Origin: Isoptericola jiangsuensis
GTDB taxonomy: Bacteria > Actinomycetota > Actinomycetes > Actinomycetales > Cellulomonadaceae
Length of the DNA stretch: 64,000 bases
Direction: 5' to 3'
Assembly: GCF_002563715.1 (NCBI RefSeq)
Contig: NZ_PDJJ01000001.1
Span: 2,852,001 to 2,916,000, forward strand
Of the stretch, positions 2,314 through 36,222 are shown piece by piece. Numbering within the stretch: the first letter of the stretch is position 1; each line of letters starts with the position of its first letter. The position numbers were made by a program, and so were the translations under genes. A model generated the notes under the pieces. It did no database searches. It had not been told where the DNA came from and was given only the letters and a program-made list of their open reading frames with translations.

Positions 2314-2352
2314 TGTTCACGGTCGGTGTTCACGGTCGGTGTTCACGGTCGG
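2314..2352. repeat. 13-bp direct repeat, three copies
   Basis: Three perfect tandem copies of TGTTCACGGTCGG. The last copy runs into the left arm of the adjoining hairpin element. The unit contains GTTCAC, but the 13-bp spacing differs from the 11-bp spacing of PHO boxes. Confidence 0.9.
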
Positions 2353-2444
2353 GTGGGGGATGCCGGGCACGGTCACGTTCACGGGCCCCAAGGGGGCCCT
2401 CCACTTCCGGTCTGACGACCGTGCCCGGCATCCCCCACCCGACC
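2347..2444 (-). repeat. Long-hairpin element, copy A
   Basis: A perfect 28-bp inverted repeat (2347-2374 and 2417-2444) encloses a 42-nt loop. On the minus strand the loop reads GTCAGACCGGAAGTGGAG, then a GGGCCC..GGGCCC mini-stem, then GTGAACG. The same core occurs at 2983-3021 and 36153-36191. The closing pair next to the arms is G-U on the minus strand and A-C on the plus strand. There is no T-tract after either arm, so it is not a canonical intrinsic terminator. Strand given is the core-sense strand. Confidence 0.9.
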
Positions 2445-2460
2445 CCACGAGTCGCAGCGC

Positions 2461-2620
2461 GGCTCGCGTGAGTCAGCGCAGACTCCCGCGAGTCAGCACA
2501 CGCTCGCGCGAGTCAGCACACGCTCGCGCGAGTCAGCACACGCTCGCGCGAGTCAGCACACGCTCGCGCGAGTCAGCACACGCTCGCGCGAGTCAGCACA
2601 CGCTCGCGCGAGTCAGCGCA
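2461..2620 (+). repeat. 20-bp tandem repeat array 1, eight copies
   Basis: Eight head-to-tail 20-bp units. Five (2501-2600) are identical, CGCTCGCGCGAGTCAGCACA; the first two and the last are variants. AGTCAGC recurs exactly every 20 bp from 2471 to 2611. There are no spacers, so it is not CRISPR. The segment CGCGAGTCAGC is the reverse complement of GCTGACTCGCG in array 2 at 3054-3153. Confidence 0.92.
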
Positions 2621-2954
2621 CATCGCGCCGACCGGCACGGGCCCGCGTCCGTCAGGTCGCCGCGGAACGAGACGACGTCAGGACTTCCATGACGAGGCCC
2701 TTGACAAGGGACCACGCCGGAGCCTCCGGCCGCGCGGCCCGTCGTCGGAGGCCTAGTGCCGCAGGTGACCTGACCAGGCCGGCGACGCGAGCTCTCCGGA
2801 CTCGGGACACGAGCTTGCGAGCGAGCGCGCCCAGCGACGACCAGGTTGCCGGTGGGCGACGTCGGCCGGCATGTCATGGCCTCGCGTGACCCGACGGCAA
2901 CACCCGCGCAGCCGCCCCGACAGGTCACCGCGCCCAGCGCGACGCGACGATCGA

Positions 2955-3049
2955 GGCCGGGTGGAGGGTCCGGGCACGGTCGTCAGACCCGAAGTGGAGG
3001 GCCCCCTGGGGCCCGTGAACGCGACCGTGCCCGGACCCTCCACCCGGCC
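2955..3049 (+). repeat. Long-hairpin element, copy B
   Basis: A perfect 28-bp inverted repeat (2955-2982 and 3022-3049) around a 39-nt loop whose core matches copy A in opposite orientation. The arms resemble those of copy A but differ by three substitutions and one single-base indel. Each change is mirrored in the partner arm, so pairing is kept. It lies immediately before array 2. Confidence 0.9.
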
Positions 3050-3053
3050 GTAC

Positions 3054-3153
3054 GCTGACTCGCGGGAACCAGCGCTGACTCGCGGGAACCAGCGCTGACT
3101 CGCGGGAACCAGCGCTGACTCGCGGGAACCAGCGCTGACTCGCGGGGGTCAGC
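3054..3153 (-). repeat. 20-bp tandem repeat array 2, five copies, overlapping the phoX stop codon
   Basis: Four identical units GCTGACTCGCGGGAACCAGC and a fifth variant (3134-3153) that ends in GTCAGC and so forms a 6-bp hairpin by itself. The phoX stop codon (3149-3151) lies inside the fifth unit, so the array begins within the 3' end of the coding sequence. It shares an 11-bp motif in inverse orientation with array 1. Confidence 0.92.
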
Positions 3154-5353
3154 GGCGGCCGGTGCCTCGCTGCCAGGGGAAGGGGCCGGGGCCGTCGAAG
3201 CGGTCACGGTCCTTGCGGCGGTCCCAGCGGTCGTGGCGACGGTCGGTGCGGTAGACCTGCACCGTGGAGGGGCGGGGCCCGCTCCAGGCGCCGGTGACCT
3301 GCTCGCCCGCGGCGAGGTAGTCGGGGAACGCGGAGGTCTGCGCGTCCCAGGAGCCGTCCTCGCCGGGGTGCTGGACGTTGACGTACGCCATGGAGTCGCG
3401 GGCGTCGACGACGGGGCCGCAGGTCTCGGCGCCGCGCGGGACGGCGAGGAACTGTTCGACGCGGCCCCGATCGCGCCCGTCGAGGGTGACCTTGAACAGG
3501 CCGTCGCACTTCTGGATGGTGGACGGCTGGCCGTCGGTGGAGATCCAGAGGTTGCCGGCGGTGTCGAAGGCGAGGTTGTCGGGGCAGGAGATGGGCGACA
3601 CCTTCTCGGGCGGGAAGCCGGAGAAGTAGGCGGTGTCGTCGACCTCGGGGTCGCCGGCCACGAGGAGGAGGTTCCAGCGGAACGTGGTGGCGGTCTGGTC
3701 GCCGCGGTCCTCGATGATCTCGACGACGTGCCCGCTGCGGTTGGTGGTGCGGGGGTTGGCCTCGTCGGCGGCGGGGTTGGTGCCGGTGCCGCGGTTGGTG
3801 TTGTTGGTGCAGGCGACGTAGATGCGCCCGGTGGCGGGGTTGGGTTCGACGTCCTCGGGGCGGTCCATCTTGGTGGCGCCGACGGCGTCGGCGGCGAGGC
3901 GGGTGAAGACGAGGACCTCGGCGACGGTCATGCCGGGGACCTGGGAGCGGCCGTCGCGGACGAGGGGCAGCCACCGGCCGCGGCCGTCGAAGGCGCCGTC
4001 GGAGGGGACGGTGCCGCTGCCGTCGATCTCGGCGGCCGGGGAGTCGCCGGTGAACCGGGCGACGTAGAGGTCGCCCTCGCTGAGGAGCTGCTTGTTGTGC
4101 TCGCGGGCGGCGCGGCTGTGGCCGTCGCGCATGCGGTGCGCCGAGACGAACTTGTAGACGTAGTCGAAGCGTTCGTCGTCGCCCATGTAGACGACGGCGC
4201 GCTTGTCGTGAGCGAGGATGACGTTGGCGCCCTCGTGCTTGAAGCGGCCGAGCGCGGTGTGCTTCACGGGGGTGGAGCCGGGGTCGTAGGGGTCGATCTC
4301 GACGACCCAGCCGAACCGGTGGTTCTCGTTCTCGTAGCCGGGGTTGTTGCCGTCGAAGCGGGGGTCGTCGAGCTCCCAGCCGTAGCCGGTGGCGGCGTCG
4401 CGCAGGCCGTAGCGGGCGTCGCGAGGGTCGGTGCCGTCGACGCGGAGGTAGCCGTGGAAGTTCTCCTCGCCGGACACGACGGTCCCCCAGGGGGTGGTGC
4501 CGCCGGCGCAGTTGTTGAGGGTGCCGAGCACGCGGCGGCCGGTGGGGTCGGCGACGGTGCGGAGCAGCGCGTCGCCGGCGGCGGGGCCGTCGACGGTGAA
4601 CGGGGTGTCCATGTGGATGCGGCGGTTGCGGCGCGCGATCCGGTCGTACTCCCAGGGTTCGCCGGTGGCGTCGCGGTGGACCTCGACGACGGTCATGCCG
4701 TGGGCGGCGCGCTCGATGGCGCGGCGGGTGGCGGCGTCGTAGCTGCCGTCGAACATGATGTCGGGGTTGGTGTACTCGTGGTTGGAGACGAGCAGGCCTC
4801 GGGTGCCGCGACGGGTCTCGACCATGGACCGCAGGTCCTTGGGGTCCTCGGGGAGGATGTCGAGGTAGTCGCAGTTGTAGCCGAACTGGCGGGCCTGCTG
4901 CTCGGGTGTCTGGCGGGCGGGGTCGAAGGCGCGGCCGCCGGGCAGGACGGGGTCGCCCCAGCGGATGATGGGCGACCAGCTGTAGCCGTCGGGGACGGTG
5001 AACGCGTCGACGTCCATGGGCTGCGGGTCGATGGCGGTGAACGCGAGGCCGGTCTTCCCGGCGCCCCAGCCGCGGCCGGTGGCGGTGGTCGCGGAGGCGG
5101 GCGTGGCGCCGAGGACGTCGGCCCCGACGACGACGGCCGCGGCGGCCGCGGCGACGCCGCCGAGCATGACGCGCCGGGTGAACGCGCGGGAGGCGACGTC
5201 GCGGAAGTACTCGTTGGCGCTGGCGTTGGGGGCGGGGTGGGAGCAGGCGTCGGCGCACTTGAGCCGGCAGGTGACGGGGCTGCGCTTGCCGCGGGCGTGG
5301 TGGGGCGTGCCGGCGACCGGCAGCAGCGGGCGCGCGTCGGGGGCGATCGTCAT
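3149..5353 (-). CDS. phoX: PhoX-family (DUF839) TAT-exported alkaline phosphatase
   Basis: Predicted secreted calcium-dependent phosphatase that releases phosphate from organic esters outside the membrane. About 734 aa, normal for actinobacterial PhoX. Residues 25-55 carry the TCRLKCADAC cysteine segment typical of these proteins. A twin-arginine signal follows (TRRVMLGG, arginines at 60-61, then an Ala/Val-rich core ending near ATPASA). PhoX-like sequence runs from DPQPMDVDAF through LLVSNHEYTN, NNCAGGTTPWGT and GEENFHGY to the C-terminus. ATG 5353 is preceded by AGGAG seven bases upstream. A candidate PHO box at 5435-5456 suggests induction by phosphate starvation through PhoP/PhoB. The 3' end lies within a 20-bp repeat array. 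The substrate is inferred from family only. Confidence 0.93.
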   Translation of the reverse strand: MTIAPDARPLLPVAGTPHHARGKRSPVTCRLKCADACSHPAPNASANEYFRDVASRAFTRRVMLGGVAAAAAAVVVGADVLGATPASATTATGRGWGAGKTGLAFTAIDPQPMDVDAFTVPDGYSWSPIIRWGDPVLPGGRAFDPARQTPEQQARQFGYNCDYLDILPEDPKDLRSMVETRRGTRGLLVSNHEYTNPDIMFDGSYDAATRRAIERAAHGMTVVEVHRDATGEPWEYDRIARRNRRIHMDTPFTVDGPAAGDALLRTVADPTGRRVLGTLNNCAGGTTPWGTVVSGEENFHGYLRVDGTDPRDARYGLRDAATGYGWELDDPRFDGNNPGYENENHRFGWVVEIDPYDPGSTPVKHTALGRFKHEGANVILAHDKRAVVYMGDDERFDYVYKFVSAHRMRDGHSRAAREHNKQLLSEGDLYVARFTGDSPAAEIDGSGTVPSDGAFDGRGRWLPLVRDGRSQVPGMTVAEVLVFTRLAADAVGATKMDRPEDVEPNPATGRIYVACTNNTNRGTGTNPAADEANPRTTNRSGHVVEIIEDRGDQTATTFRWNLLLVAGDPEVDDTAYFSGFPPEKVSPISCPDNLAFDTAGNLWISTDGQPSTIQKCDGLFKVTLDGRDRGRVEQFLAVPRGAETCGPVVDARDSMAYVNVQHPGEDGSWDAQTSAFPDYLAAGEQVTGAWSGPRPSTVQVYRTDRRHDRWDRRKDRDRFDGPGPFPWQRGTGRR

Positions 5354-5434
5354 CGGGTCACTCCTGGTGTCGGACCGGGGGAACGTCCTGAACCTAGGAA
5401 TGCCGCGTGGCCGCCGATCGACCGGGCCCTTGCG

Positions 5435-5456
5435 CGTCGGTGAACACCGCGTGACC
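5435..5456 (-). promoter_or_regulatory. Candidate PHO box (two 11-bp direct-repeat units) upstream of phoX
   Basis: On the minus strand, GGTCACGCGGT is followed directly by GTTCACCGACG. The second unit matches the Streptomyces PhoP unit GTTCACC plus four bases exactly; the first matches 5 of 7. It lies about 82 bp before the phoX start. A possible -10 (TAGGTT) sits at 5391-5396 between the box and the gene. Confidence 0.5.
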
Positions 5457-5469
5457 TGCCGATGCGGGC

Positions 5470-5497
5470 GGGCGGGACGACCGGTGACGGCCCGCCC
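5470..5497 (-). terminator. Hairpin after mogA-moaE
   Basis: GGGCGGG/CCCGCCC stem of 7 bp with a 14-nt loop, 27 bases after the moa operon stop and upstream of the phoX control region. It could end the molybdenum-cofactor transcript. No T-run is visible, so support is weak. Confidence 0.3.
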
Positions 5498-5523
5498 CGC
5501 GCCAGCCGGACGGTGCCCGGACG

Positions 5524-6585
5524 TCAGCCGAGCGAGCCCACCCACTCGCTGGTGCCGTCGTCGAAGCCCTGCTCCTTCCAGATGGGGACCTCGGCCTTGA
5601 GCTCCTCGACGAGGTCGGCGGCGCAGGTGAAGGCGGCCTGGCGGTGGCCGGACGCGACGGCGGCGACGACGGCGACGTCCCCGACGTCCAGGGAGCCGTA
5701 CCGGTGCACGACGGCGACGCGCAGGCGGTCCCCGGTGGTGGCGGCGACGCGTCGGGCGACGCGCTGGGCGACGGCGTGCAGGACGGTGGCGGCGTCGGGG
5801 TGGGCCTCGTAGTGCAGGGCGGTGACGCCACGCCCCTCGTCGTGGTCGCGGACGTGGCCGACGAAGGTGGCGACGGCGCCGCACGCGTCGTCGCGGACGA
5901 GGGCGGCGAGCTCGCCGTGCAGGGTGTCGAGGGGGGAGTCGACGACGTCGGCGCGCAGCACGACGGACTCTCCCTCCGGGGTCGCGGCCGGCGCCGGACC
6001 GGGGTGGTCGTGTCCGGCGAGCTGGTCGACGGCGTGCGGCAGGACGTCGGCGAGGGCGTCGAGGCCGTCGAGCAGGCCCCCGACGGAGCCGGGCAGGTTG
6101 ACGACGAGGGCGCGACCGGCGACCCCGGCGACACCGCGGGACAGCGCGGCGGCGGGCACGGCCTTCTTCGCGGGGTCGGTGGGGGCGAGCGACCGGGCGC
6201 GCACGAGCTCGGCGACGCCGGGCACCTCGCGGTCAAGGACGGTGAGCGTCGCCTCGGGGGTGGAGTCCGACGCAGCGATGCCCGTGCCGCCGGAGGTGAC
6301 GATCACGTCGGGCGGGGCGTCGCCGTCCAGCAGCTCGAGCAGGGCGTCGCGGACGGGTTCGCCGTCGGGCACGACGACGACGGGCAGCACGTCCCAGCCG
6401 TGCGTGGTGAACCACCCGGCGGCGGCCGGTCCGGACCGGTCGGCGTAGACACCGGCGGCGGCACGGTCGGACGCGACGACGACGGCGGCGCGGCGACGCC
6501 TCGCCGACCGGGACCCGACGTCGGCGGGCCGTCCCTCGACGCCGTGGTGGGGATGGTCCTCGGTGCGGCCGTCGGCGGTGGTCAT
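5524..6585 (-). CDS. MogA/MoaB-MoaE fusion protein
   Basis: Two molybdenum-cofactor enzymes in one 353-aa chain. Residues ~30-190 are a MogA/MoaB-type molybdopterin adenylyltransferase, with VIVTSGGTGIAASDSTPEAT at ~94-113 matching the family GGTG..D.TPEA signature and LPGSVGG at ~164-170. Residues ~205-353 are MoaE, the large subunit of molybdopterin synthase, with GAVATFVGHVRDH, HRYGSLDVGD and the catalytic KAEVPIWKEQ segment. The MoaE partner MoaD is encoded 30 kb away at 35.7 kb. ATG 6585 overlaps the moaC stop (ATGA). Both parts look intact, so this is a genuine fusion rather than a frameshift; the linker is short (about residues 190-205). Confidence 0.9.
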   Translation of the reverse strand: MTTADGRTEDHPHHGVEGRPADVGSRSARRRRAAVVVASDRAAAGVYADRSGPAAAGWFTTHGWDVLPVVVVPDGEPVRDALLELLDGDAPPDVIVTSGGTGIAASDSTPEATLTVLDREVPGVAELVRARSLAPTDPAKKAVPAAALSRGVAGVAGRALVVNLPGSVGGLLDGLDALADVLPHAVDQLAGHDHPGPAPAATPEGESVVLRADVVDSPLDTLHGELAALVRDDACGAVATFVGHVRDHDEGRGVTALHYEAHPDAATVLHAVAQRVARRVAATTGDRLRVAVVHRYGSLDVGDVAVVAAVASGHRQAAFTCAADLVEELKAEVPIWKEQGFDDGTSEWVGSLG

Positions 6586-7058
6586 GCGTCCTCCCGCGTC
6601 CAGTCGCCGGACTTCCCGCCGGACTTGGCGACGACCTCGACGTCGGTGAGGACGGCGGCCTTGTCGACGGCCTTGATCATGTCGTAGAGGGTGAGCCCGG
6701 CGACGGTGACCGCGGTGAGGGCCTCCATCTCGACGCCGGTGCGTCCGGTGGTGCGCACGGTCGCGGTGATCTCGACGTGGTCGCCCGAGGGGACGAGGTC
6801 GAGCTCGACGCCCGACAGGGGCAGCGGGTGGCACAGCGGCACGAGGTCGGCGGTGCGCTTGGCGCCCATGATCCCGGCGATGCGGGCAGTGGCGATCGCC
6901 TCGCCCTTGGGGAGGTCGCCGGTCGCGATCCTCTCGACGACGTCGGGCCGGGTGCGCAGCACGCCGCGGGCGGTGGCCTGCCGCTTCGTGACGTCCTTGG
7001 CGGTGACGTCGACCATGTGGGCGGCCCCGTCGGCGCGGTAGTGGGTCAGGTCGCTCAT
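6582..7058 (-). CDS. moaC: Cyclic pyranopterin monophosphate synthase MoaC
   Basis: Converts the MoaA product to cyclic pyranopterin monophosphate, the second half of the first step of molybdenum-cofactor synthesis. 158 aa, full length. Motifs: HMVDVTAKDVTKR near the N-terminus, GIMGAKRTADLVPLCHPLPL, GVEMEALTAVTVAGLTLYDM, and the KSGGKSG loop before the C-terminus. It sits between moeA and the mogA-moaE fusion with ATGA overlaps on both sides, so the three genes form one operon. MoaA, which acts with it, is in the second molybdenum-cofactor operon at 34.6 kb. Confidence 0.96.
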   Translation of the reverse strand: MSDLTHYRADGAAHMVDVTAKDVTKRQATARGVLRTRPDVVERIATGDLPKGEAIATARIAGIMGAKRTADLVPLCHPLPLSGVELDLVPSGDHVEITATVRTTGRTGVEMEALTAVTVAGLTLYDMIKAVDKAAVLTDVEVVAKSGGKSGDWTREDA

Positions 7059-8341
7059 CGGATCTCCCAGTAGTCGACCTCGGCACCTGCGGGCAGGTGC
7101 GCGACGCCGGGCGGCACGTGCACGAGGAGCGTAGCCGCCGCGAGGTGGGCCAGGAGGTGGGATCCCGGGCCGCCGACGAGGGCGACACGGCCGTCGGGGT
7201 CGAGGCGGCCGCGGCGCACCTGGTGCAGGTGCGGGGGCGAGTCGACGGCGGTGGCGAGCGGGGCGCGGCCGCGCGGCCGGTGGGCGGGCCCGGCGCCGGT
7301 GGCGGCGGCGAGGACGGGGCGCAGGAACAGCTCGAAGGACACGAGCGCGCTGACGGGGTTGCCGGGGAACGCGACGAGCGGGACCTCGGGGGGGTCCCCG
7401 GGCGCGCCGAGGGTGACGGTGCCGAGGCCCTGCGGTCCGCCGGGCTGCACGGCGACGTGTCCGAACCAGGCGTCGGTGAGGGTCTGGCGGACCACCTCGT
7501 ACGCGCCGGCGGAGACGCCGCCGCTGGTGACGACGAGCGCGACGTCGGCGGGGGCGTCGGCGAGGACGGCACGCAGGGCGGCGGGGTCGTCCGCGACGAC
7601 GCGGGGCGTGACCCGGCACCCGACCTGGGCGAGCGCGGCGGTGAGGGCGGCGCCGTTGGCGTCGTGGAGCTGCGCGGGGCCGAGGGTCTCGCCGGCGGGC
7701 ACGAGCTCGGACCCGGTGGAGACCAGCAGGACGTGCGGCGCCTCGGCGACCTCCACCTCGGTGACGCCCGACGCGACGAGCACGCCGAGCTGCGGCGGGC
7801 CGACCGGCGTGCCCGCGGGGACGACGACGTCCCCCGCGGCGACGTCGGACCCGCGGCGGCGGACGAACGTGCCGGCAGCGGCGGGGGTGGCGAACCGGAC
7901 GCCGGCGCGGGCGGCGGGGTCGGGGAACGCGGGCGGATCGGCGTCCTCGATCTTCACGACGGCGTCGGCGCCGGCGGGGACGGGGGCGCCGGTCATGACG
8001 GGCGCGGCGGTGCCGGCCTCCAGCGGCGGTGGCTGCGTGCCGGCCGGGACGGGCGCGGCGACGGGCAGCACGACCGGGCGCGCTGGCGTCGCCCCGGCCA
8101 GGTCGGCGGCGCCCACGGCGTACCCGTCCATCTGGGAGTTGTCGAAGCCCGGCAGGTCCAGCCCGGCGACGGCGTCGGCCACGAGGGTGCGCGGGGCGAG
8201 GACGCCCGCGGCCGCCGCGGCGAGGAGCCCGGCGAGCGGCAGGGTCGTGGCCCGCCGCGCGGCGGCGAGCCCTGCCTCGACCAGTCCGCGGACCGCCTCC
8301 TGGTGCTCGGGCACGGCCCGCCGGTCGGCGTGGTGATCCAT
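7055..8341 (-). CDS. moeA: Molybdopterin molybdotransferase MoeA (copy 1)
   Basis: Inserts molybdate into adenylylated molybdopterin. 428 aa, normal for MoeA. Visible: GFDNSQMDGYAV near residues 65-77, VMTGAPVPAGADAVVKIED, LLVSTGSELVPAGE, DVALVVTSGGVSAGAYEVV and FPGNPVSALVSFELF, ending in the domain-IV barrel. First gene of the operon moeA-moaC-mogA/moaE, with an ATGA overlap to moaC. A second, more divergent MoeA is at 32.5 kb, the only molybdenum-cofactor enzyme present twice here. No strong ribosome site precedes the ATG. Confidence 0.95.
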   Translation of the reverse strand: MDHHADRRAVPEHQEAVRGLVEAGLAAARRATTLPLAGLLAAAAAGVLAPRTLVADAVAGLDLPGFDNSQMDGYAVGAADLAGATPARPVVLPVAAPVPAGTQPPPLEAGTAAPVMTGAPVPAGADAVVKIEDADPPAFPDPAARAGVRFATPAAAGTFVRRRGSDVAAGDVVVPAGTPVGPPQLGVLVASGVTEVEVAEAPHVLLVSTGSELVPAGETLGPAQLHDANGAALTAALAQVGCRVTPRVVADDPAALRAVLADAPADVALVVTSGGVSAGAYEVVRQTLTDAWFGHVAVQPGGPQGLGTVTLGAPGDPPEVPLVAFPGNPVSALVSFELFLRPVLAAATGAGPAHRPRGRAPLATAVDSPPHLHQVRRGRLDPDGRVALVGGPGSHLLAHLAAATLLVHVPPGVAHLPAGAEVDYWEIR

Positions 8342-8371
8342 GCCGAGCAGCCTACGAGGTGCGCGCGGGCG

Positions 8372-9235
8372 TCAGGAGGACACGTCCGCCGTCGTGAAGC
8401 GGCTCCACGCGAGCGTGCCGAAGATCGCGACCCACGCGGCCTGCACGGCCAGCCCCGCGGCCAGCGTCGAGGCGTCCACCTGCAGCCGCAGGAACTCCCC
8501 GAGGTCGAGCCAGTGGTGCGTGAGCAGCGCCGGGTGGATCGCGGACAGCTGCGGCAGGGCGTCGAGCACGCCGCTGACGATGGCCACGACGACGGTGGCG
8601 GCCATCGCCGCCACGGGGACCTCGGTGAGCGTGGACAGGAACAGGCCGACCGCGACCAGCCCCGTCAGGGAGAGGACGACGTAGCCGACGACGCCGAGGG
8701 CGCGGAGCATGCCCTCGGCGAGCGGGATCGTGTCGCCCGACAGCAGCACGACGTCGCCGACGCCGAAGTAGGCCGCGCCCGCGACGAGGCCGACCACGGC
8801 GATGGCGAGGACGGCGGCGCCCGCGTAGGCGAGCGCCGCGACGGCCTTGGCCAGGAGCAGGCGGGTGCGCGGGACGGGCACGACGAGCAGGTAGCGCAGC
8901 GTGCCGGCGGACGCCTCCCCCGCGACGGCGTCGCCGGAGACGATGGCGACGCACAGCGGAAGGAGGAACGGCAGGCAGCTCACCAGCGCGGCGAACACGA
9001 GGAACAGGCCGTTGCCGGTGACGCGGTCGAGGAACGGCGGTCCCTGCCCGGCCACGGGCGTGCCCTGCGTGACGAACAGGACGGTGCCGACCAGGAGCGG
9101 GACGCACGCCAGTCCGGCGAGCAGCACGAGGTTGCGCACCCGGCCGAACACGAGGCGCAGCTCGCTGCGCAGCAGGCGGGCCGTGGCGCGGGGCGCGGAC
9201 GCGACGGGCGCCGCCGTGGTCTCAGCGAGCGACAT
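8372..9235 (-). CDS. ABC-2 type transporter permease
   Basis: Membrane subunit (287 aa) of an exporter, partnered with the ATPase encoded just upstream. About six hydrophobic segments: residues ~33-52 (LVLLAGLACVPLLVG), ~75-98, ~125-150, ~165-190, ~200-225 and ~255-275. EASAGTLRYLLVVPVPRTR matches the conserved region after the second segment of ABC-2 permeases. The ATG at 9235 lies 14 bases inside the ATPase 3' end. The substrate is unknown. The linked LolA-like protein and divergent two-component system suggest an envelope-stress or drug-export module; this is inference. Confidence 0.85.
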   Translation of the reverse strand: MSLAETTAAPVASAPRATARLLRSELRLVFGRVRNLVLLAGLACVPLLVGTVLFVTQGTPVAGQGPPFLDRVTGNGLFLVFAALVSCLPFLLPLCVAIVSGDAVAGEASAGTLRYLLVVPVPRTRLLLAKAVAALAYAGAAVLAIAVVGLVAGAAYFGVGDVVLLSGDTIPLAEGMLRALGVVGYVVLSLTGLVAVGLFLSTLTEVPVAAMAATVVVAIVSGVLDALPQLSAIHPALLTHHWLDLGEFLRLQVDASTLAAGLAVQAAWVAIFGTLAWSRFTTADVSS

Positions 9236-11395: not shown

Positions 11396-11418
11396 GGGAC
11401 CACCCTGGCCGAGGCCAC

Positions 11419-11435
11419 CTGAGACCACGCTGAGA
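11419..11435. promoter_or_regulatory. Candidate response-regulator box (CTGAGA direct repeat, 11-bp period)
   Basis: CTGAGA at 11419-11424 and again at 11430-11435, one helical turn apart, in the 122-bp gap between the LolA-like/exporter operon and the divergent response regulator gene. OmpR/PhoB-family regulators bind direct repeats of this period, so it is a plausible autoregulatory site. Confidence 0.4.
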
Positions 11436-11505
11436 ACGCCCCCGAGGGCGCACCCCGGGCCGCGGCGCAGGACACGCCGGGGACGCGCCCGGCGCCCGCC
11501 GGTGC

Positions 11506-11511: not shown

Positions 11512-11517
11512 GCGGGG

Positions 11518-15383: not shown

Positions 15384-15384
15384 G

Positions 15385-28023: not shown

Positions 28024-28057
28024 CCCCAACCCGTGCCACCGCCCGGAGGTCGATCCG

Positions 28058-29731: not shown

Positions 29732-30438
29732 GGCTCGCGTTCCTGCCCCGGCCCGGCGTCCGCGCGGCCCGGCTCGACACGCTCGACCCGGTGCGCCTCG
29801 ACGACGCCGCCCGGGCCCGCGCCCACATGGCGGCCTCCCTGCTGCTCGCCTACCCCGACGACGACACCCTGGCAGCCGCCGCCGAGGTGCGGCCCGCCGT
29901 GGCAGCGCTGCCCGCCCCGGTGCGGGACCGGCTGGACGGGCTCGCCGCGACGCTCCTGGACGGCGACCAGCGTGCCCTCCAGGCGGACTACGTGGCGACG
30001 TTCGACCTGCGACGGCGCTGCTCCATGTACCTGTCGTACTACGCGGCGGGCGACACCCGGCGCCGTGGCGCCGCCCTGGTGCGGTTCGTCGAGGCCTACC
30101 GCGCCGCCGGCTTCGAGACCACCGGCACCGAGCTGCCCGACTATCTGCCGACGGTCCTGGAGCTGTCGGCGTGCGGGGGCGAGGTCGGTGCCCGGATCGC
30201 GGGCGCCCTGCTGGACGCCCACCGGGACGGCATCGAGGTGCTGCGCTCGGCGCTCGCAGCGCTCGGCTCGCCGTGGACGGCGGGGATCGAGGCCGTGTGC
30301 CTCACCCTCGCGCCGGTGGACGCAGCGACGGCGGAACGGATCGCCGACCTGGTGGCCTCCGGACCCCCGGCGGAGACGGTCGGGCTGGACGGGTACGGGG
30401 CCGACGCCCCCGGAGGGAGGGACCTGCCGTGGACGTGA
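29728..30438 (+). CDS. narJ: Nitrate reductase assembly chaperone NarJ
   Basis: Cytosolic chaperone that holds apo-NarGH until molybdenum cofactor is inserted and the complex docks on NarI; not part of the final enzyme. 236 aa, all-helical. Matches: HMAASLLLAYPDDD near residue 34, the core LQADYVATFDLRRRCSMYLSY-type segment at ~90-110 (kept as DYVATFDLRRRCSMYLSYY), GDTRRRGAALVRFVEAYRAAG, and LPDYLPTVLELSA. The ATG overlaps the narH stop and the gene overlaps narI by 10 bases, so the operon is translationally coupled. Confidence 0.94.
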   Translation: MRLAFLPRPGVRAARLDTLDPVRLDDAARARAHMAASLLLAYPDDDTLAAAAEVRPAVAALPAPVRDRLDGLAATLLDGDQRALQADYVATFDLRRRCSMYLSYYAAGDTRRRGAALVRFVEAYRAAGFETTGTELPDYLPTVLELSACGGEVGARIAGALLDAHRDGIEVLRSALAALGSPWTAGIEAVCLTLAPVDAATAERIADLVASGPPAETVGLDGYGADAPGGRDLPWT

Positions 30439-31193
30439 CCGGCGACCAGATCGTGCTGTGGGTCGTGGTGCCGTACGCCTGCCTGGCGATCTTCGTCGTC
30501 GGCACGCTGTGGCGGTACCGGTACGACAAGTTCGGCTGGACCACCCGCTCCAGCGAGCTGTACGAGAAGCGGCTGCTGCGGCTCGGCAGCCCCCTGTTCC
30601 ACTTCGGCCTCCTGGCGGTGATCGCCGGGCACTTCGTGGGGCTGGTGATCCCCAAGTCGTGGACCGAGGCGGCGGGCGTGAACGAGGCCGCCTACCACTT
30701 CCTGGCGACCTGGCTCGGGTCGGTCGGCGCCCTCGCGCTCGTCTCCGGGCTGGTCATCCTCATCTACCGGCGCCGGTCGACCGGCCCGGTCTTCCAGGCC
30801 ACGACGCGCATGGACAAGACGATGTACGTGGCGCTCGCCGCGTCGATCCTGTCGGGCGCCTGGGCGACCGTGCACACGCAGATCCTCGCGGGCGGCCACG
30901 GCTACGACTACCGCGAGACCGTCTCGCCGTGGTTCCGCACGCTGTTCACGCTCCAGCCGGAGCCGCTGCTCATGGCGGGCGTACCGCTGGCGTTCCAGGT
31001 GCACGTCACGGTCGCGATGCTGCTGTTCGCGCTGTGGCCCTTCACGCGGCTGGTGCACGCGTTCTCCGCACCCGTCGCATACCCGTTCCGGCCGTACATC
31101 GTGTACCGGTCGCGCGACACGACCACCCGCTCCGGCGCCCGGACCCCGCGGCCGGGCTGGGAACCGCCCACCACGCCCCGGGAGAGACGATGA
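30429..31193 (+). CDS. narI: Respiratory nitrate reductase gamma subunit NarI
   Basis: Membrane di-heme b subunit that takes electrons from menaquinol. 254 aa with five predicted helices: ~5-25, ~50-70 (PLFHFGLLAVIAGHFVGL with two heme-ligand histidines), ~85-108, ~125-150 and ~180-205 (FQVHVTVAMLLFALWPFTRLVH with the other two histidines). C-terminal VAYPFRPYIVYRSR is typical. GTG 30429 starts inside narJ; this start gives the family-typical N-terminus. The stop overlaps the narK ATG (ATGA). Confidence 0.95.
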   Translation: MDVTGDQIVLWVVVPYACLAIFVVGTLWRYRYDKFGWTTRSSELYEKRLLRLGSPLFHFGLLAVIAGHFVGLVIPKSWTEAAGVNEAAYHFLATWLGSVGALALVSGLVILIYRRRSTGPVFQATTRMDKTMYVALAASILSGAWATVHTQILAGGHGYDYRETVSPWFRTLFTLQPEPLLMAGVPLAFQVHVTVAMLLFALWPFTRLVHAFSAPVAYPFRPYIVYRSRDTTTRSGARTPRPGWEPPTTPRERR

Positions 31194-32431
31194 CGGACGC
31201 ACCGCTGCCCCCGACCACGACCTCCGACCCGGCCGTCGCCGCCCCTCCCGGAGCGACCCGCCAGCTCGTGCTGGCGACCGTCGGGTTCGCGATCTGCTTC
31301 TGGGCGTGGGCCCTGCTCAGCCCCCTGGGGAACACGTACGGCGACCTGTACGGCCTCTCCGACTTCGAGGTGTCGGTCCTCGTCGCCGTGCCGGTCATCG
31401 TCGGGTCCCTCGGCCGCATCCCCGTCGGGGCGCTGACCGACCGGCTCGGCGCGAAGGTGGTGTTCCCGGTCGCGGCGGCGGCGACCATCGTGCCCGTCCT
31501 GTTCGTGGGGCTCGTGGCCGACAACCTCGCGCTGCTGCTCGTCGGCGGGTTCTTCCTCGGCCTGGGCGGCACCACGTTCGCGATCGGTGTCCCGTTCGTC
31601 AACTCCTGGTACCCGCCGGCCCGACGCGGCACCGCGATCGGCATCTTCGGGGCAGGCATGGGCGGCACCGCGATCGCCGCATTCACGACCGTGCCGATCC
31701 GCGACACGTGGGGCGACGCGGCACCGTTCTGGATCGTGTCGGCGTTCCTTGCGGCGTTCGCGCTCGTGTCCAGGGTCCTGCTCCAGGAGTCGCCCTGGCG
31801 CGTCCCCCCGGGGCCGGACGCGCCCGGCATGCTGGCCCGCACGTGGGCGACGCTGAAGATCCCCGTGACGCTCGAGCTCTCCTGGCTGTACGCCGTGGGC
31901 TTCGGCGGCTTCGTCGCGTTCAGCGTCTACCTGCCGACGTTCCTGCAGAACGCCTACGACCTGACCCCCTCGGACGCATCGTTCCGCACGGCCGGGTTCG
32001 TCGTCCTCGCCGTCGTGATGCGGCCCGTGGGCGGCACTCTGTCCGACCGGTTCGGCCCGGTCCTGGTCTCCCTCGGGTGCTTCGCCGTCGTGACGATCTT
32101 CGCGTCCGTCGTCATCTTCCAGCCGGCTCTCGTCCCCGGCGGCACGATCGCGTTCCTCGGCATGGCCGCCGGGCTCGGCGCGTCGTCCGGCGCGACGTTC
32201 GCCCTGGTCGCCAAGATGGCGCCCGCCGACCAGGTGGGGGCCGTCACCGGCGTCGTCGGGGCCGCCGGCGGGTTGGGCGGCTTCATCCCGCCGCTCATCA
32301 TGGGCGCCGTGTACGCCGGCAAGGGCGACTACGACCTCGGCTTCGGCCTGCTCGCCCTGACCGGCGCCCTGACGTTCCTGTTCACGCTCGGGCCGGTCCG
32401 GCGGCGGGTGGCGGCGCACGACGCGTCATGA
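31190..32431 (+). CDS. narK: Nitrate/nitrite MFS antiporter NarK, respiratory operon
   Basis: Major-facilitator transporter (413 aa, about 12 helices) placed last in the narGHJI operon, where it would import nitrate and/or export nitrite. Motifs: GSLGRIPVGALTDRLGAK (loop 2-3), GLGGTTFAIGVPFVNSWYPP and GAGMGGTAIAAF (nitrate-signature region), VVMRPVGGTLSDRFGP, and GAAGGLGGFIPPLIMG (second signature). Shorter at the N-terminus than the nas-linked transporter. ATG overlaps the narI stop. Confidence 0.93.
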   Translation: MTDAPLPPTTTSDPAVAAPPGATRQLVLATVGFAICFWAWALLSPLGNTYGDLYGLSDFEVSVLVAVPVIVGSLGRIPVGALTDRLGAKVVFPVAAAATIVPVLFVGLVADNLALLLVGGFFLGLGGTTFAIGVPFVNSWYPPARRGTAIGIFGAGMGGTAIAAFTTVPIRDTWGDAAPFWIVSAFLAAFALVSRVLLQESPWRVPPGPDAPGMLARTWATLKIPVTLELSWLYAVGFGGFVAFSVYLPTFLQNAYDLTPSDASFRTAGFVVLAVVMRPVGGTLSDRFGPVLVSLGCFAVVTIFASVVIFQPALVPGGTIAFLGMAAGLGASSGATFALVAKMAPADQVGAVTGVVGAAGGLGGFIPPLIMGAVYAGKGDYDLGFGLLALTGALTFLFTLGPVRRRVAAHDAS

Positions 32432-32492
32432 CCTCACCACGGCACGGCGACGACTGTGAGGGCGCCGCTCCATGGCGGACACACGGGCCACC

Positions 32493-32498
32493 TATCGT
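32493..32498 (+). promoter_or_regulatory. -10 element for leaderless moeA2
   Basis: TATCGT ends seven bases before the GTG at 32506, and no ribosome site is visible. It suggests that the second molybdenum-cofactor operon has its own promoter despite being only ~75 bp behind narK. Confidence 0.45.
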
Positions 32499-32505
32499 GG
32501 CCGGT

Positions 32506-33741
32506 GTGACCCCGCGCACCATCGCCGAGCACCGGGCCGCCGTCCTGGCCCGGGTGTCTCCCGTGCCCGCGGGCGAGGTCGCGCTCGACGACCCGGCCGT
32601 GCTCGGCCTCGCGCTCGCCGACGACGTGGTGGCCGCGACGGCCGTGCCCGGGTTCGACCACGCCGCGATGGACGGGTACGCCGTCCGGCTCGCCGACCTG
32701 CCCGCCGACGGCACGCCCGTCACCCTCCCGGTCCTCGCGGACGTCCGGCCGGGCCGCCCCGCCGACCCGGCGACGACCGGGACCGGGGGCGCCGTCCGCA
32801 TCATGACCGGCGCGCCCCTGCCCGCCGGGCTCGACGCCGTCGTCCCCGTCGAGCGCACCTCCACCGGGCGGTTCGTCGCGGGGGGTCCGTCGACGGAACG
32901 CACCGTCACGCTCGCCCGGCAGGCGCGCGACCACGTGCGCCGCACCGCCTCCGACGTCCCGCCCGGCGCCCTGCTCGCCAAGGCGGGCGCCCCGGTCCAC
33001 GCGGGCGTGGTCGCCGCGGCCGTCGCGGCCGGTGTCACCACCGTGTCCGTGCGGCGCCGTCCCCGCGTCGCGGTGCTCTCGACGGGGTCGGAGCTCGTTC
33101 CCCTCGGCACCGGCGGGCCCGGTACCGTGCCCGACTCCAACTCCCTCATGCTCGCCGCCCTGGTCCGTGCCGCAGGAGCCGACGTCGTCCGCGTCGGCGC
33201 CGTCCCCGACGACGCGGCCGCGCTCGGTTCGGTCCTCGACCGGGTCACGGCCCCCGGCGGCGCCGTGGACCTCGTCGTCTCCTCCGGCGGCGTCTCCGCC
33301 GGCGCGTCCGACGTCGTCCGGGAGGTGCTCGCCACCGGCGTCGCGGACGCCGTCGACGTGGCCGCCGTCGCGATGCGACCCGGCCGCCCGCAGGCCCTGG
33401 CCACCTGGCACGGCGTCCCCTGGGTCGCCGTGCCCGGCAACCCCGTCAGCGCCTTCGTCTCGACCGTGCTGTACGTCCTGCCGGCCGTCCGCCGGCTCGC
33501 CGGCCTCACCGACGACCCCGCCCTCGCCGTCCCCGCCGCCACCGGCTGGACCTCCCCCGCGGGCGCCGAGCAGGTCCTGCCCGTCCGGCTCGGACCGGAC
33601 GGCGCCACCCCCGCCGGACCCGGCGGGCACCACCTGTCCGCGCTCGCCGACGCCGACGCCCTCGCCGTCGTCCCCGCGAACGTCGACCAGGTGCGACCCG
33701 GCGACGTGCTGCCCGTGCTGCGCCTCCCGGAGCCCCGATGA
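32506..33741 (+). CDS. moeA: Molybdopterin molybdotransferase MoeA (copy 2)
   Basis: Second MoeA (411 aa), heading the operon moeA-mobA-DUF6457-moaA-moaD. Motifs: GFDHAAMDGYAVRLADL, RIMTGAPLPAGLDAVVPVE, RVAVLSTGSELVPLG, DLVVSSGGVSAGASDVVREV and VPGNPVSAFVSTVLY. GTG 32506 is chosen: it begins TPRTIAEHRAAVLARV as other MoeA proteins do and has a well-placed -10. An ATG at 32428 overlaps the narK stop but would add 26 residues unlike MoeA. The duplicate may serve different molybdenum enzymes or levels; that is inference. Confidence 0.92.
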   Translation: MTPRTIAEHRAAVLARVSPVPAGEVALDDPAVLGLALADDVVAATAVPGFDHAAMDGYAVRLADLPADGTPVTLPVLADVRPGRPADPATTGTGGAVRIMTGAPLPAGLDAVVPVERTSTGRFVAGGPSTERTVTLARQARDHVRRTASDVPPGALLAKAGAPVHAGVVAAAVAAGVTTVSVRRRPRVAVLSTGSELVPLGTGGPGTVPDSNSLMLAALVRAAGADVVRVGAVPDDAAALGSVLDRVTAPGGAVDLVVSSGGVSAGASDVVREVLATGVADAVDVAAVAMRPGRPQALATWHGVPWVAVPGNPVSAFVSTVLYVLPAVRRLAGLTDDPALAVPAATGWTSPAGAEQVLPVRLGPDGATPAGPGGHHLSALADADALAVVPANVDQVRPGDVLPVLRLPEPR

Positions 33742-34343
33742 GGTACGACGCGATCGTGCTCGCCGGCGGCCGGGCCACCCGCCTGGGCGGCACCCCGAAG
33801 CCCGGCGTCGTCGTCGGGACGCGACGCCTGCTCGACCGCGCGCTCGCGGCCTGCGCGGACGCCGAACGGACCGTCGTCGTCGGGCCCGCGCCCGAGATCG
33901 GGCCCGTCCCGCCCGGCGTGGTCGTGACGTGCGAGGACCCGCCCCGCGGCGGCCCCGTCGCCGGGACGGCCGCCGGCCTGGCCGCGCTCGCCCGCGACGA
34001 CCGGCCCGCGCACGTCCTCCTCCTCGCCGTCGACGTGCCCGCCGCACCCGCCGCCGTCGGGCCCCTCGTCACCGCGGCCGCCGCCCACCCGGACGCCGAC
34101 GGCGTCCACCTCAGCCGCGCCGGGCGGGCGCAGTGGCTCACCGGCCTCTACCGCACCGACGCCCTCACGGCGGCCGCCACGACCCTCGCCGTGCACGGCG
34201 CCCCGGTCCGCCGCCTCGTCGCCCCGCTCGACCTCGTGGAGGTCGACGACCCCGCCGGGGTGAGCGACGACGTCGACACCTGGGAGGATGTCACCAGGCT
34301 CGCCGCCCGCCGCACCGGCCGACCCGAGGAGGCCACACCATGA
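33738..34343 (+). CDS. mobA: Molybdenum cofactor guanylyltransferase MobA-like
   Basis: Attaches GMP to molybdenum cofactor to form the bis-MGD used by NarG and NasC. 201 aa, nucleotidyltransferase fold. Signature LAGGRATRLGGTPKP at residues ~8-22, GPAPEIGPVPPGVV, DPPRGGPVAGTAAGLAAL and LLLAVDVPAAPAAVGPLV with the metal-binding Asp; GRAQWLTGLYR follows. ATGA overlaps both neighbours. The N-terminal glycine-rich loop is shorter than in E. coli MobA, as in actinobacteria. The choice between MobA and a related cytidylyltransferase rests on the operon. Confidence 0.88.
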   Translation: MRYDAIVLAGGRATRLGGTPKPGVVVGTRRLLDRALAACADAERTVVVGPAPEIGPVPPGVVVTCEDPPRGGPVAGTAAGLAALARDDRPAHVLLLAVDVPAAPAAVGPLVTAAAAHPDADGVHLSRAGRAQWLTGLYRTDALTAAATTLAVHGAPVRRLVAPLDLVEVDDPAGVSDDVDTWEDVTRLAARRTGRPEEATP

Positions 34344-34615
34344 CCGAGGACACCCCCACCTCGCTCGCCCGCTGGGTGGGCGCCCTGGAGTCCGAGCTCG
34401 GCCTGCCGGCGGGCAGCGTCGACGTCACCGAGGTCCTCGACCTCGCCCGGGACGCCGCCCACCGCGTCGCCCGGCCCGCGGCACCCGTCACCGCCTACGT
34501 CGTCGGCTACGCGCGCGGCCTCGCCGCCGCGCAGGGCACCGCCGCCGACGACGCCGCGGACCGCGCCGCCCGCCTCGCGCTCGCCTGGGAGCCCACCGCC
34601 ACGGAGGCGCCATGA
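34340..34615 (+). CDS. Small DUF6457-like protein in the molybdenum-cofactor operon
   Basis: 91-aa soluble, mainly helical protein of unknown function. Start SLARWVGALESELGLP, middle VTEVLDLARDAAHRVARPAAPVTAYVVGYARGLAA-like segment (residues ~33-65) and a C-terminal DDAADRAARLALAWEP. Similar small proteins follow or are fused to MobA in actinobacteria. ATGA overlaps with mobA and moaA indicate tight co-translation. No catalytic motif is visible; a MobA partner or cofactor-handling role is only a guess from position. Confidence 0.8.
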   Translation: MTEDTPTSLARWVGALESELGLPAGSVDVTEVLDLARDAAHRVARPAAPVTAYVVGYARGLAAAQGTAADDAADRAARLALAWEPTATEAP

Positions 34616-35697
34616 CGCTCGTCGACCTCGGGATCCCGGCGCTGCCCACCACCGGCGCCCCCCGGCCCGTCGCCCTGCCCGCCGACCGCCCCGCCACCAC
34701 CGGGCTCGTCGACCGGTTCGGGCGCGTCGCCACCGACCTGCGCGTGTCCCTGACGGACCGCTGCAACCTGCGCTGCACCTACTGCATGCCCGCCGAGGGG
34801 CTGCCCGCCCTGCCCCGCGACGCCACCATGACCCGCGCCGAGATCGCCCGGCTGGTCGGCGTCGCGACCCGCGACCTCGGGGTGCGGCAGGTGCGCTTCA
34901 CCGGCGGGGAACCGCTGCTGCGCCGCGACCTCGTCGACATCGTGCGCGACGTCGCCGCGCTGGAGCACCGCCCCGAGATCAGCCTCACCACCAACGCCGT
35001 CGGGCTCGACACCCGCGCCCACGCGCTGCGCGACGCCGGGCTCGACCGCGTCAACGTCTCCCTCGACACCCTCGACCCCGACACGTTCGCCACCCTCGCC
35101 CGGCGCCCCTTCCTCGAACGCACCCTCGCCGGGATCGCCGCCGCCGCCGAGGTGTTCGACGTCGTCAAGATCAACGCGGTCCTCGTGCGCGGCGTCAACC
35201 TCGACCACGCCGCCGACCTGCTCGCCTGGTGCCTGGAGCGCGGTTTCGAGCTGCGGTTCATCGAGCAGATGCCGCTGGACGCCGACCACTCCTGGGACCG
35301 CACCGCCATGGTCACCGCCGCCGAGGTGCGCGGGCTGCTCGGGCAGCGCTTCACCCTCGCGCCCGACGTCGAGCCCCGCGACGGCGCCCCCGCCGAACGG
35401 TTCGTCGTCAGCACCCCCGCCGGCGGACGCCTCGGCCGCGTCGGCATCATCGCGTCCGTCACCGAACCCTTCTGCGGCGACTGCCGACGCACCCGTCTCA
35501 CCGCCGAGGGCGGCGTCCGCGACTGCCTGTTCGCGCACACCGAGACCGACCTGCTCGGCCCCCTGCGCGCCGGAGCCACCGACGCCGACCTGGCCGACCG
35601 CTGGCGCGCCGCCATGTGGGCCAAGGGCCCCGGGCACGGCATGGACGACCCCACGTTCAGCCAGCCCGAACGCACCATGAGCGCGATCGGAGGCTGA
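34612..35697 (+). CDS. moaA: GTP 3',8-cyclase MoaA
   Basis: Radical-SAM enzyme that starts molybdenum-cofactor synthesis from GTP, acting with MoaC. 361 aa. N-terminal [4Fe-4S] CNLRCTYC (C-x3-C-x2-C, residues ~48-55), FTGGEPLLRRDLVDIV, VNVSLDTLDP, and the second cluster CGDCRRTRLTAEGGVRDC (C-x2-C-x13-C). The C-terminal Gly-Gly (SAIGG) needed for activity is present. ATG overlaps the previous stop. MoaC is not in this operon but in the one at 6.6 kb. Confidence 0.97.
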   Translation: MTLVDLGIPALPTTGAPRPVALPADRPATTGLVDRFGRVATDLRVSLTDRCNLRCTYCMPAEGLPALPRDATMTRAEIARLVGVATRDLGVRQVRFTGGEPLLRRDLVDIVRDVAALEHRPEISLTTNAVGLDTRAHALRDAGLDRVNVSLDTLDPDTFATLARRPFLERTLAGIAAAAEVFDVVKINAVLVRGVNLDHAADLLAWCLERGFELRFIEQMPLDADHSWDRTAMVTAAEVRGLLGQRFTLAPDVEPRDGAPAERFVVSTPAGGRLGRVGIIASVTEPFCGDCRRTRLTAEGGVRDCLFAHTETDLLGPLRAGATDADLADRWRAAMWAKGPGHGMDDPTFSQPERTMSAIGG

Positions 35698-35699
35698 TG

Positions 35700-36062
35700 A
35701 TGAGCGACACGGGTCTCGGCCCCGCCGTCCGGGTAACCGTGCAGGTGCGGTGCTTCGCCGCCGCCCGCGCGGCGCTCGGCTTCCCCGACCGGACGGTCGC
35801 CGTCGACGCCGCCGCCGCCGGTGCCGGAGCCGGTGCCGGAGCCGGTGCCGGTGCCGGTGCCGGTGCCGGTGCCGGTGCCGGTGCCGGTGCCGGTGCCGTG
35901 ACCGTGGCCGACGTCGTCGCGCAGCTCGTGGCGGCCGTGCCGTCCGCCGAGCCCGTCGTCGCCCGCTGCTCCGTGCTGCTCGACGGCCGCCGCGCCGCGC
36001 CGGCCGACGTCGTGCCCGACGGCGCGACCCTCGACCTGCTGCCGCCCTTCGCCGGCGGCTGA
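35700..36062 (+). CDS. moaD: Molybdopterin synthase sulfur carrier MoaD with an expanded Gly-Ala repeat
   Basis: Ubiquitin-fold sulfur carrier, thiocarboxylated on its C-terminal Gly-Gly (LLPPFAGG), partner of MoaE. 120 aa, about 30 longer than usual. The excess is a Gly-Ala repeat (residues ~41-67) encoded by a hexanucleotide array, lying in the loop between the first beta strands and the TVADVVAQL helix. Two adjacent ATGs (35697, 35700) are possible. The second is chosen because GGAGG is then six bases upstream. The MoaE it serves is the fusion protein at 5.5 kb. The operon ends here against convergent etfA. Confidence 0.9.
   Translation: MSDTGLGPAVRVTVQVRCFAAARAALGFPDRTVAVDAAAAGAGAGAGAGAGAGAGAGAGAGAGAGAVTVADVVAQLVAAVPSAEPVVARCSVLLDGRRAAPADVVPDGATLDLLPPFAGG
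35821..35898 (+). repeat. Hexanucleotide repeat within moaD (13 units)
   Basis: Thirteen 6-bp units, eleven GTGCCG and two GAGCCG, in frame and encoding alternating Gly and Ala. Copy-number changes would preserve frame. Confidence 0.95.
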
Positions 36063-36063
36063 C

Positions 36064-36113
36064 CGTCGGGCTCGTCGCTTCGTTCGCCGGTGATGGGGCG
36101 GGCGTGCCCGACG
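36064..36113. repeat. Inverted repeat after moaD
   Basis: CGTCGGGC (36064-36071) and GCCCGACG (36106-36113), 34 bp apart, directly after the moaD stop and before hairpin element C. Confidence 0.5.
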
Positions 36114-36121
36114 CACCACCA

Positions 36122-36222
36122 CGCTCCTGGTCCGCGGGTCTGCGCGCGGTCGTCAGACCGGAAGCGGAGGGCCCCCTGGGGCCCGTGAGCGCGGCCGCGC
36201 GCAGACCCGCGGACCGGGAGCG
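36122..36222 (+). repeat. Long-hairpin element, copy C, between convergent moaD and etfA
   Basis: 31-bp inverted repeat (36122-36152 and 36192-36222) around a 39-nt loop with the core of copies A and B (GTCAGACCGGAAGCGGAG, GGGCCC mini-stem, GTGAGCG). The arms are unrelated in sequence to those of A and B. Two non-Watson-Crick positions are U-G on the plus (core-sense) strand and would be A-C on the minus strand. Its place between convergent genes fits an mRNA 3'-end or boundary role, though there is no T-tract. Confidence 0.9.

Follow-up and report, generated by a model that had tools for sequence, protein, structure and literature searches.

A dispersed family of long intergenic hairpins in Isoptericola and related genera, with a near-invariant tip on freely changing, paired arms

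ERIC and YPAL elements are intergenic palindromes of about 100-130 base pairs (bp) that occur in many copies and are conserved over their whole sequence, arms included, while integron attC sites carry their conserved core sites at the base of a hairpin. REP and BIME palindromes, including the GTAG- and CGTC-tagged families, have stems of 5-13 bp with a conserved end tag according to PMC3733652, where they are dispersed between genes near stop codons, in convergent or unidirectional gaps and often as inverted pairs, and are proposed to act in RNA. Intrinsic transcription terminators are G+C-rich stable hairpins just behind stop codons. A survey of perfect inverted repeats with spacers of up to 8 bp in 118,019 genomes reports that near terminators the arms are conserved and the spacers variable (PMC13155455). 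Here we analysed a stretch of 64,000 nucleotides of Isoptericola jiangsuensis (the window, G000:C1:2852001-2916000, where G000 is the 4.04-Mb single-contig genome), in which a sequence-only reading had noticed three long hairpins, A, B and C, with a shared apical core. The three are members of one dispersed family, larger than that reading had described, in which a near-invariant tip stands on arms of nearly fixed length but free sequence.

An inverted-repeat scan of the window (score of at least 14, loop of at most 60) returned A, B and C where the reading had placed them, one repeat within a predicted gene and nothing more (Table 1). The RNA fold of each hairpin beats 200 out of 200 shuffled sequences on either strand (z from −8.2 to −11.3). 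Their common core consists of GAAG-Y-GGAG, a GGGCCC mini-stem and GTGA-R-CG. A and B, whose arms the reading had found similar, form a minus/plus pair. The arms of C have no relation to theirs and yet are paired, two of the pairs being T.G wobbles when read on the plus strand.

A first DNA search of the G000 genome gave 43 matches. A covariance model trained on 29 of the first 30 loci returned 67 rows, from which 7 reverse-strand echoes and 3 weak partial matches (E 0.036-0.22) were dropped, leaving 57 distinct copies. This number rules out a chance or local duplication of three hairpins. The reading had called for a search of related genomes: copies were found in all 18 Isoptericola genomes searched, at 2 to 58 per genome (model R1), and the core pattern matches 18/18 of these genomes, compared with 0/18 for a reversed control pattern. 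Neither of the outcomes that the reading had set against itself, a dearth of further copies and arms that fail to pair, occurred. A strict 27-base core pattern, searched in one genome per species over 84,980 species (a set in which the window's own genome may be missing), matched 79 stretches, all from six related genera: Isoptericola, Promicromonospora, Krasilnikoviella, Myceligenerans, Xylanimonas and Puerhibacterium. Searches over more than 40 genomes used stricter filters, by which weak matches are lost. Within the taxonomic family, model R2 matched 27 genomes out of 121, with 6 of the 25 genera represented; in a sample of the class it matched only 2 of 296 genomes, both Isoptericola, and model R1 matched none of 22 genomes from other families of the order.

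Read in the orientation of the core, the element, about 100 bp long, runs from the first arm through a T, a variable segment of about 4-8 nucleotides, CCCGAAG-Y-GGAG, the mini-stem and C-GTGA-R-CG to the second arm. The T is invariant in the 68 copies of alignment A3, which was drawn from 101 matches in other species after echoes, duplicates and some others had been left out. The mini-stem has six pairs and a loop of 3-5 nucleotides, and occurs in the compensated forms GGGCCC, GCGCCC, GGTCGC, GGGCGC, GGCCGC and GGTTGC. Y and R of the internal loop covary as well: among 187 distinct sequences they are T-A in 149, C-G in 37 and C-A in one. A second C-A case is found among the matches listed, and both come from the same genome (G004). 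Arms were found by script in all but 3 of the 142 copies of the genomes G000, G012 and G017; they measure 28-32 bp in 112 of 139 copies, about 29 bp being typical and 14 bp the shortest. One copy in a predicted open reading frame (G000:3964025, L232 about 4026-4123) has weak arms, paired at 26 of 32 positions, at a locus common to other species (G012:2785496).

The pairing of the arms is maintained through changes on both sides. In 29 G000 copies 96.1% of cells pair (mean of shuffled alignments 71.8) and two-sided changes occur at 25 of 35 pairs; in the 68 copies of A3 the values are 98.3% (67.3) and 32 of 37. Arms and mini-stem together hold 211 cells changed on both sides in the G000 set and 716 in A3, compared with shuffled means of 59 and 182; these alignments come from a core-aware model or pattern, and the A3 members were also matched by a model with arm pairing. 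RNAalifold, run with no structure supplied, recovers both the arms and the mini-stem, with an extra U-G closing pair in 68/68 copies, and it picks a two-pair CC/GG hairpin rather than the Y-R pair. The conserved apical core on divergent arms that still pair, which the reading had proposed from three hairpins and likened to a structured RNA or to a DNA hairpin recognised at its tip, is supported by these copies; covariation of the mini-stem and internal-loop pair, and dispersal of the copies, had not been part of that proposal.

We then compared the family with described repeats. The median identity of arms between copies is 0.55, 0.57 and 0.45 in G000, G012 and G017, so that MITE-type conserved terminal inverted repeats are absent, as the reading had held for both REP and MITE sequences. 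The placement typical of REP/RAYT elements (intergenic, near 3' ends, in convergent or unidirectional gaps) is shared by most copies. In contrast to the 5-13-bp stems and end tag described in PMC3733652, the arms here are about 29 bp long and not conserved in sequence, and it is the tip that is conserved. By eye there is no invariant tag at the stem base, where many copies share a weak A before and G after. The Y1 (TnpA-REP) transposase family PF01797 was found in 0/34 genomes, 18 of them of the genus, and in 5/14 control genomes, which led us to reject membership of REP/RAYT. The family resembles ERIC and YPAL in size and copy number but differs in its variable arms, and it lacks an attC-type conserved base, since its base is variable and its tip conserved. 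It is also the reverse of the pattern of conserved arms and variable spacers given in PMC13155455. In agreement with the claim that no described family matches, Rfam gave no match at the curated threshold in the 64-kb window; one 901-bp stretch with two copies gave 7 sub-threshold matches only (6 microRNA models and one small RNA), and none of the papers listed by searches of the open-licence literature describes the hairpins, as judged by titles and abstract openings.

Many loci are vertically inherited. Forty-two of the 57 G000 copies adjoin a gene whose G012 match also flanks a copy, 35 of them on the same side, and the corresponding number for G000 and G017 is 15 copies; matches were taken by blastp among copy-flanking genes only, at 60% identity or more. 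A single cluster, at the locus flanked by a crp-like and an L-PSP family gene (Pfam), contains 16 copies, which come from G000, G012, G017 and additional Isoptericola loci. Some loci are common to Isoptericola and Promicromonospora, Krasilnikoviella, Puerhibacterium or Xylanimonas, in clusters made at 50% protein identity, where paralogs are possible. Copies also disperse, as shown by 100% identical arms at non-homologous loci: G012 has 49 pairs of copies with arms at least 90% identical, several of them 100% identical with flanks that differ at once. No pair of copies in G017 has arms even 80% identical.

The change of arms over time was followed in 34 of the 35 same-side ortholog pairs of G000 and G012, whose flanking proteins are mostly 84-99% identical. 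Of the pairs in these hairpins, 707 are unchanged and 174 have changed on both sides to another Watson-Crick pair; 37 have changed on one side only, and 15 show two-sided changes of other kinds. The shared ancestry of copies may inflate these counts. Because 126 of the 174 are of transversion type and only 48 of transition type, most two-sided changes cannot pass via a single G.U intermediate. They are mildly clustered along the arms (101 runs versus 113.8 expected, with 7 of 2000 shuffles as low). Template switching homogenises arms and inverts spacers, and bacterial data cited in the discussion of the same source have it favour transversions (PMC8604942); it has also been proposed to maintain RNA stems (PMC8794818). 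We infer that template switching may be the source of the matched arms. The near constancy of tip and arm length speaks against template switching as the sole cause and suggests selection.

The hairpins described in PMC8794818 are alike in that perfect stems are kept through two-sided changes under a conserved loop, and in their excess of 5'-G pairs (862 GC and 436 CG in G000). The U-A excess predicted there is seen in G000 (183 to 75) and is absent from the set of other species (233 to 259), and that source describes rRNA and microRNA genes, whereas the present family is a dispersed bacterial intergenic repeat. We asked whether flips of the core between orthologous loci prove spacer inversion. 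The copies whose only partner is on the opposite side number 7 (G000-G012), 4 (G000-G017) and 2 (G012-G017), and six were aligned; differential loss from an old minus/plus pair explains the flips equally well, and they were not retained as proof.

Mismatches in the arms are asymmetric between the strands. Among transition-type mismatches read on the core strand, G.T exceeds A.C by 54 to 19 in G000, G012 and G017 and by 34 to 9 in the 81 copies of the 79 core-pattern loci, 88 to 28 in total; p values for this excess are too small because copies share ancestry, which may inflate the ratio itself, and because one of the 79 loci is from the G017 genome. The ratio is similar whichever neighbour transcribes the hairpin (35:11, 10:3 and 9:3, with 0:2 in divergent gaps). 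By direction of replication it is 39:11 for head-on and 15:8 for co-directional copies, the latter not significant alone. The mini-stem shows no G.T excess, with 0 G.T and 3 A.C or C.A among 1122 pairs. The asymmetry suggests that the core strand is the strand that folds, as RNA or as single-stranded DNA.

The placement of the copies was analysed with gene positions from our own gene finder in G000, G012 and G017. At least one neighbouring gene 3' end faces 138 of the 142 copies. Convergent genes flank 38/57, 39/57 and 19/28 copies in the three genomes and divergent genes 0, 3 and 1, while a sampled background of 228 G000 gaps of at least 100 bp contains 22 convergent and 71 divergent ones (40 copy-free regions of 20 kb, chosen non-randomly, 20 evenly stepped in the copy-free zone and 20 placed by hand elsewhere). 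The 81 other-species copies comprise 39 in convergent, 14 and 15 in the two kinds of tandem and none in divergent gaps, with 13 at stretch edges. The 3' side of the core is the one nearer to the adjoining gene (medians of 62, 55 and 13 bp, versus 315, 209 and 38 on the other side), and a host 3' end faces the core within 100 bp in 38/57, 36/57 and 23/28 copies. The reading had placed all copies between genes at 3' ends. This stands for B, about 98 bp from the phoX stop, and for C, between convergent genes, but not for A, which lies 120 bp upstream of the start of an aminotransferase-family gene and about 700 bp from the phoX stop; genome-wide, the core 3' side points towards a gene 3' end in 48 of the 57 G000 copies and not in the rest. 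A shared function of the host genes was rejected: Pfam families obtained for 30 of the 48 G000 genes facing cores, 2 of the 30 having none at E 1e-5, show mixed housekeeping functions. They include a ubiE-type methyltransferase, ThiC, a tRNA pseudouridine synthase, a fumarase-type lyase, a prenyltransferase and a crp-like regulator.

Ordinary terminator hairpins are rarer at convergent gene ends that bear copies. Where 31-200 bp separate the stop codon from the copy, such hairpins were found in that interval at 14 of 78 convergent ends in G000 and G012, versus 32.1 expected from 86 G000 control convergent ends cut to the same lengths. The shortage is seen at 31-60 bp (1/29, 5.7 expected), 61-100 bp (6/24, 11.8 expected) and 101-200 bp (7/25, 14.6 expected); the 0-30 bp class is uninformative (0/29, 0.1 expected). 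Distance from the stop also differs with the probable age of a copy. Six G012 copies are probably young, each having a close arm twin and none matching a copy of G000. Their distances to the host stop are 75-192 bp, while the median for the other copies is 33 bp in G012 (39 copies, p 0.0018 versus the six) and 11 bp in G017 (23 copies), counting only copies that face a 3' end at less than 900 bp. Five of the six were examined in G000 (3050062 was left out). In three the G000 gap aligns, lacks the hairpin and contains an ordinary terminator hairpin common to G012; 401732 and 1165354 aligned too poorly to judge. The flanks of the three aligned empty and filled sites are too diverged and repeat-rich for a target-site duplication to be read, and the difference may be a gain or a loss.

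To account for these data we tentatively propose, as an explanation with close to an even chance of being right, that the hairpin repeat disperses and is retained at gene 3' ends in the role of a bidirectional terminator or insulator, and that a putative trans-acting factor recognises its tip. The hairpin would stop or insulate transcription from both sides, and this would be its most likely job because a very stable hairpin can form in either transcript. New copies would arise downstream of existing terminators, and older copies would sit right behind stop codons, having replaced the ordinary terminators. Template switching would rewrite one arm from the other and selection would weed out broken hairpins, so that the arms stay complementary while changing.

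Several observations weigh against this proposal. Unlike intrinsic terminators, the hairpins have no T-tract, besides having 29-bp arms and a conserved structured tip: in the sense of the host gene the fraction of T in G000 is 0.71 at the first base after the stem, then 0.36 and 0.18, and on the core strand it is 0.02-0.11 after the stem. In tandem gaps the two orientations are about equal (22 copies, 10+7+5, and 20 copies, 9+8+3, of 142), so no single transcript sense is favoured. The G.T excess lies on the core strand, antisense to the nearest host gene; selection acting only on the host transcript would produce the opposite. Predicted open reading frames, some probably false, contain 4/57, 4/57 and 2/28 copies in the three genomes and 21/81 of the other-species copies. 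The three possibly young copies are not needed at their sites, because the ordinary terminator hairpin is still present there. Some arm twins share their flanks (401732/1165354 in G012, 3597679/3851166 in G000), so duplication of longer DNA makes up part of the dispersal. Finally, termination explains neither the near-invariant tip nor a copy-free zone around the terminus.

The dispersal itself could also be that of a selfish, non-autonomous mobile hairpin of REP or MITE type, which an enzyme recognising the folded tip would move in trans and which would be tolerated at 3' ends as harmless, any terminator role being a by-product. This would fit the wide variation in copy number among close relatives in the genus, the abundance of arm twins with unrelated flanks in G012 but not in G017, the three G012 copies opposite hairpin-free G000 gaps, if these are gains, and the 9 close minus/plus pairs of G000, which recall the REP dimers of PMC3733652. 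We nevertheless consider it unlikely, if still credible. No Y1 transposase was found in the carriers of the genus, the ends are not conserved, and loci shared across genera keep their pairing intact, unlike unconstrained selfish DNA; for arm twins with shared flanks, gene conversion or segment duplication is possible. A phage or plasmid element was rejected: hairpin B as a query (one copy only, and arms vary) matched none of 50,697 phage or 72,556 plasmid records, and a single pattern match in a viral contig shows no hairpin by eye.

A bolder version of the terminator proposal, which we hold to be rather doubtful, would centre on a clade-specific factor that reads the tip, in RNA or in single-stranded DNA, and by it both directs new copies to gene ends and controls transcript 3' ends; the tip would be the mini-stem with its covarying internal loop, carried by a duplex of about 30 bp. 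The arms would be no more than a ruler and scaffold rewritten by template switching, and the repeat would be of a type with its conserved part at the apex instead of the ends.

The distribution along the chromosome raises another alternative, a chromosome-organising or replication-linked DNA site. Its core strand would fold, either as single-stranded DNA or into a cruciform, with a structural protein bound to it. With the terminus defined as the point facing dnaA, copies are absent from the part of the replichore past 0.78, 0.82 and 0.84 in the three complete genomes (Kolmogorov-Smirnov p 1.7e-5, 8.9e-4 and 0.15), although convergent gaps in G000 are as frequent in terminus regions as elsewhere (49 versus 50 per 400 kb sampled). 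The core strand is head-on to the replication fork in 95 of 139 copies. Such a site would explain the fixed arm length, the orientation against the fork and the absence from the terminus. However, the three distributions are not independent because loci are shared, and G017 alone is not significant; many carriers have as few as 1-5 copies, too low a number for an organising system, the orientation may follow that of the genes, and the preference for 3' ends is left without explanation. We regard this alternative as improbable.

Insertion of the core into the loops of different old terminators, which would have become the arms, is very improbable and largely refuted: arms do differ between copies, and other long intergenic hairpins exist (14 of 68 score at least 20, many with loops of 2-6 nucleotides), but 54 of these 68 non-family hairpins (433 kb) score below 20 whereas family arms are mostly 28-32 bp, non-homologous copies have arms in common, and each of the three hairpin-free G000 gaps has a terminator of its own, located in G012 next to the hairpin and not inside it.

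The neighbours of hairpins A, B and C and other repeats are listed in Table 1. Both 20-bp tandem arrays of the window belong to a second dispersed family, GCGCTGACTCGCG. This repeat was rejected as an integral part of the hairpin, at least 2 of its cores being present within 400 bp in 27/57 copies of G000, 26/57 of G012 and 0/28 of G017. A 13-bp tandem repeat runs into hairpin A, and its segment GTTCACGG is present in the hairpin tip as well. Another hairpin family has the reverse design, with a similar base (CGACGAGCGTGC...GCACGCTCGTCG) and a variable tip, and is intergenic; a further repeated hairpin was also seen.

Table 1. Hairpins, neighbouring genes and repeats. Positions are those of the window unless a genome (G) or locus (L) is named; genes are from our own gene finder.
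Feature	Position	Strand	Details
Hairpin A	2347..2444	core on minus	28-bp arms, 42-nt tip; core motif 2376-2407
Hairpin A, model match	G000:2854347-2854446	minus	105.7 bits
Hairpin B	2955..3049	+	28-bp arms, 39-nt tip; core motif 2991-3021; model match 104.2 bits
Hairpin C	36122..36222	+	arms about 30 bp; inverted-repeat scan 36121-36223; core motif 36161-36191; model match 93.6 bits
Class-V aminotransferase family gene	988..2226	-	5' side towards hairpin A; Pfam PF00266
PhoX-type phosphatase gene	3149..5353	-	stop towards hairpin B; Pfam PF05787
Small ThiS-family gene	35898..36062	+	ends ahead of hairpin C; Pfam PF02597, weak (24.5 bits, cut-off 22.5)
Electron transfer flavoprotein family gene	36245..37222	-	stop towards hairpin C; Pfam PF00766 and PF01012
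13-bp tandem repeat	2297-2352		TCGGTGTTCACGG x4.3
20-bp tandem repeat	2462-2621		GCTCGCGCGAGTCAGCACAC x8
20-bp tandem repeat	3053-3146		CGCTGACTCGCGGGAACCAG x4.7
Hexanucleotide array	35817-35898		GCCGGT x13.7; between MoaA-like gene and small ThiS-family gene
Hairpin-free zones	G000:C1 1.43-2.52 Mb; G012:C1 402-1165 kb; G017:C1 1.29-2.07 Mb		roughly opposite dnaA
Reverse-design hairpins	L235:6307-6372; L236:8071-8136; L231:5959-6021; L235:325-386; L206:2896-2966; L228:8807-8880
Further repeated hairpin	L215:570-630; L217:2724-2796; L347:13963-14025; L347:15064-15120		GTCGAGCGTCTCTGAAAGTCCGG and complement

The family may work like a terminator or insulator and spreads somewhat like REP elements, while failing the defining features of both. 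In bacterial palindromic repeats and terminators it is usually the arms or ends that are conserved and the loop that drifts; here this is inverted. The dozens of loci in this group of soil bacteria, several of them traced across species and genera, constitute a natural experiment on the persistence of long near-perfect stems whose sequence turns over, and bear on the origin of compensatory changes. A partner of the tip, if there is one, would offer a new handle on the ends of transcription, or on the dispersal of a repeat in genomes where no Y1 transposase was found.

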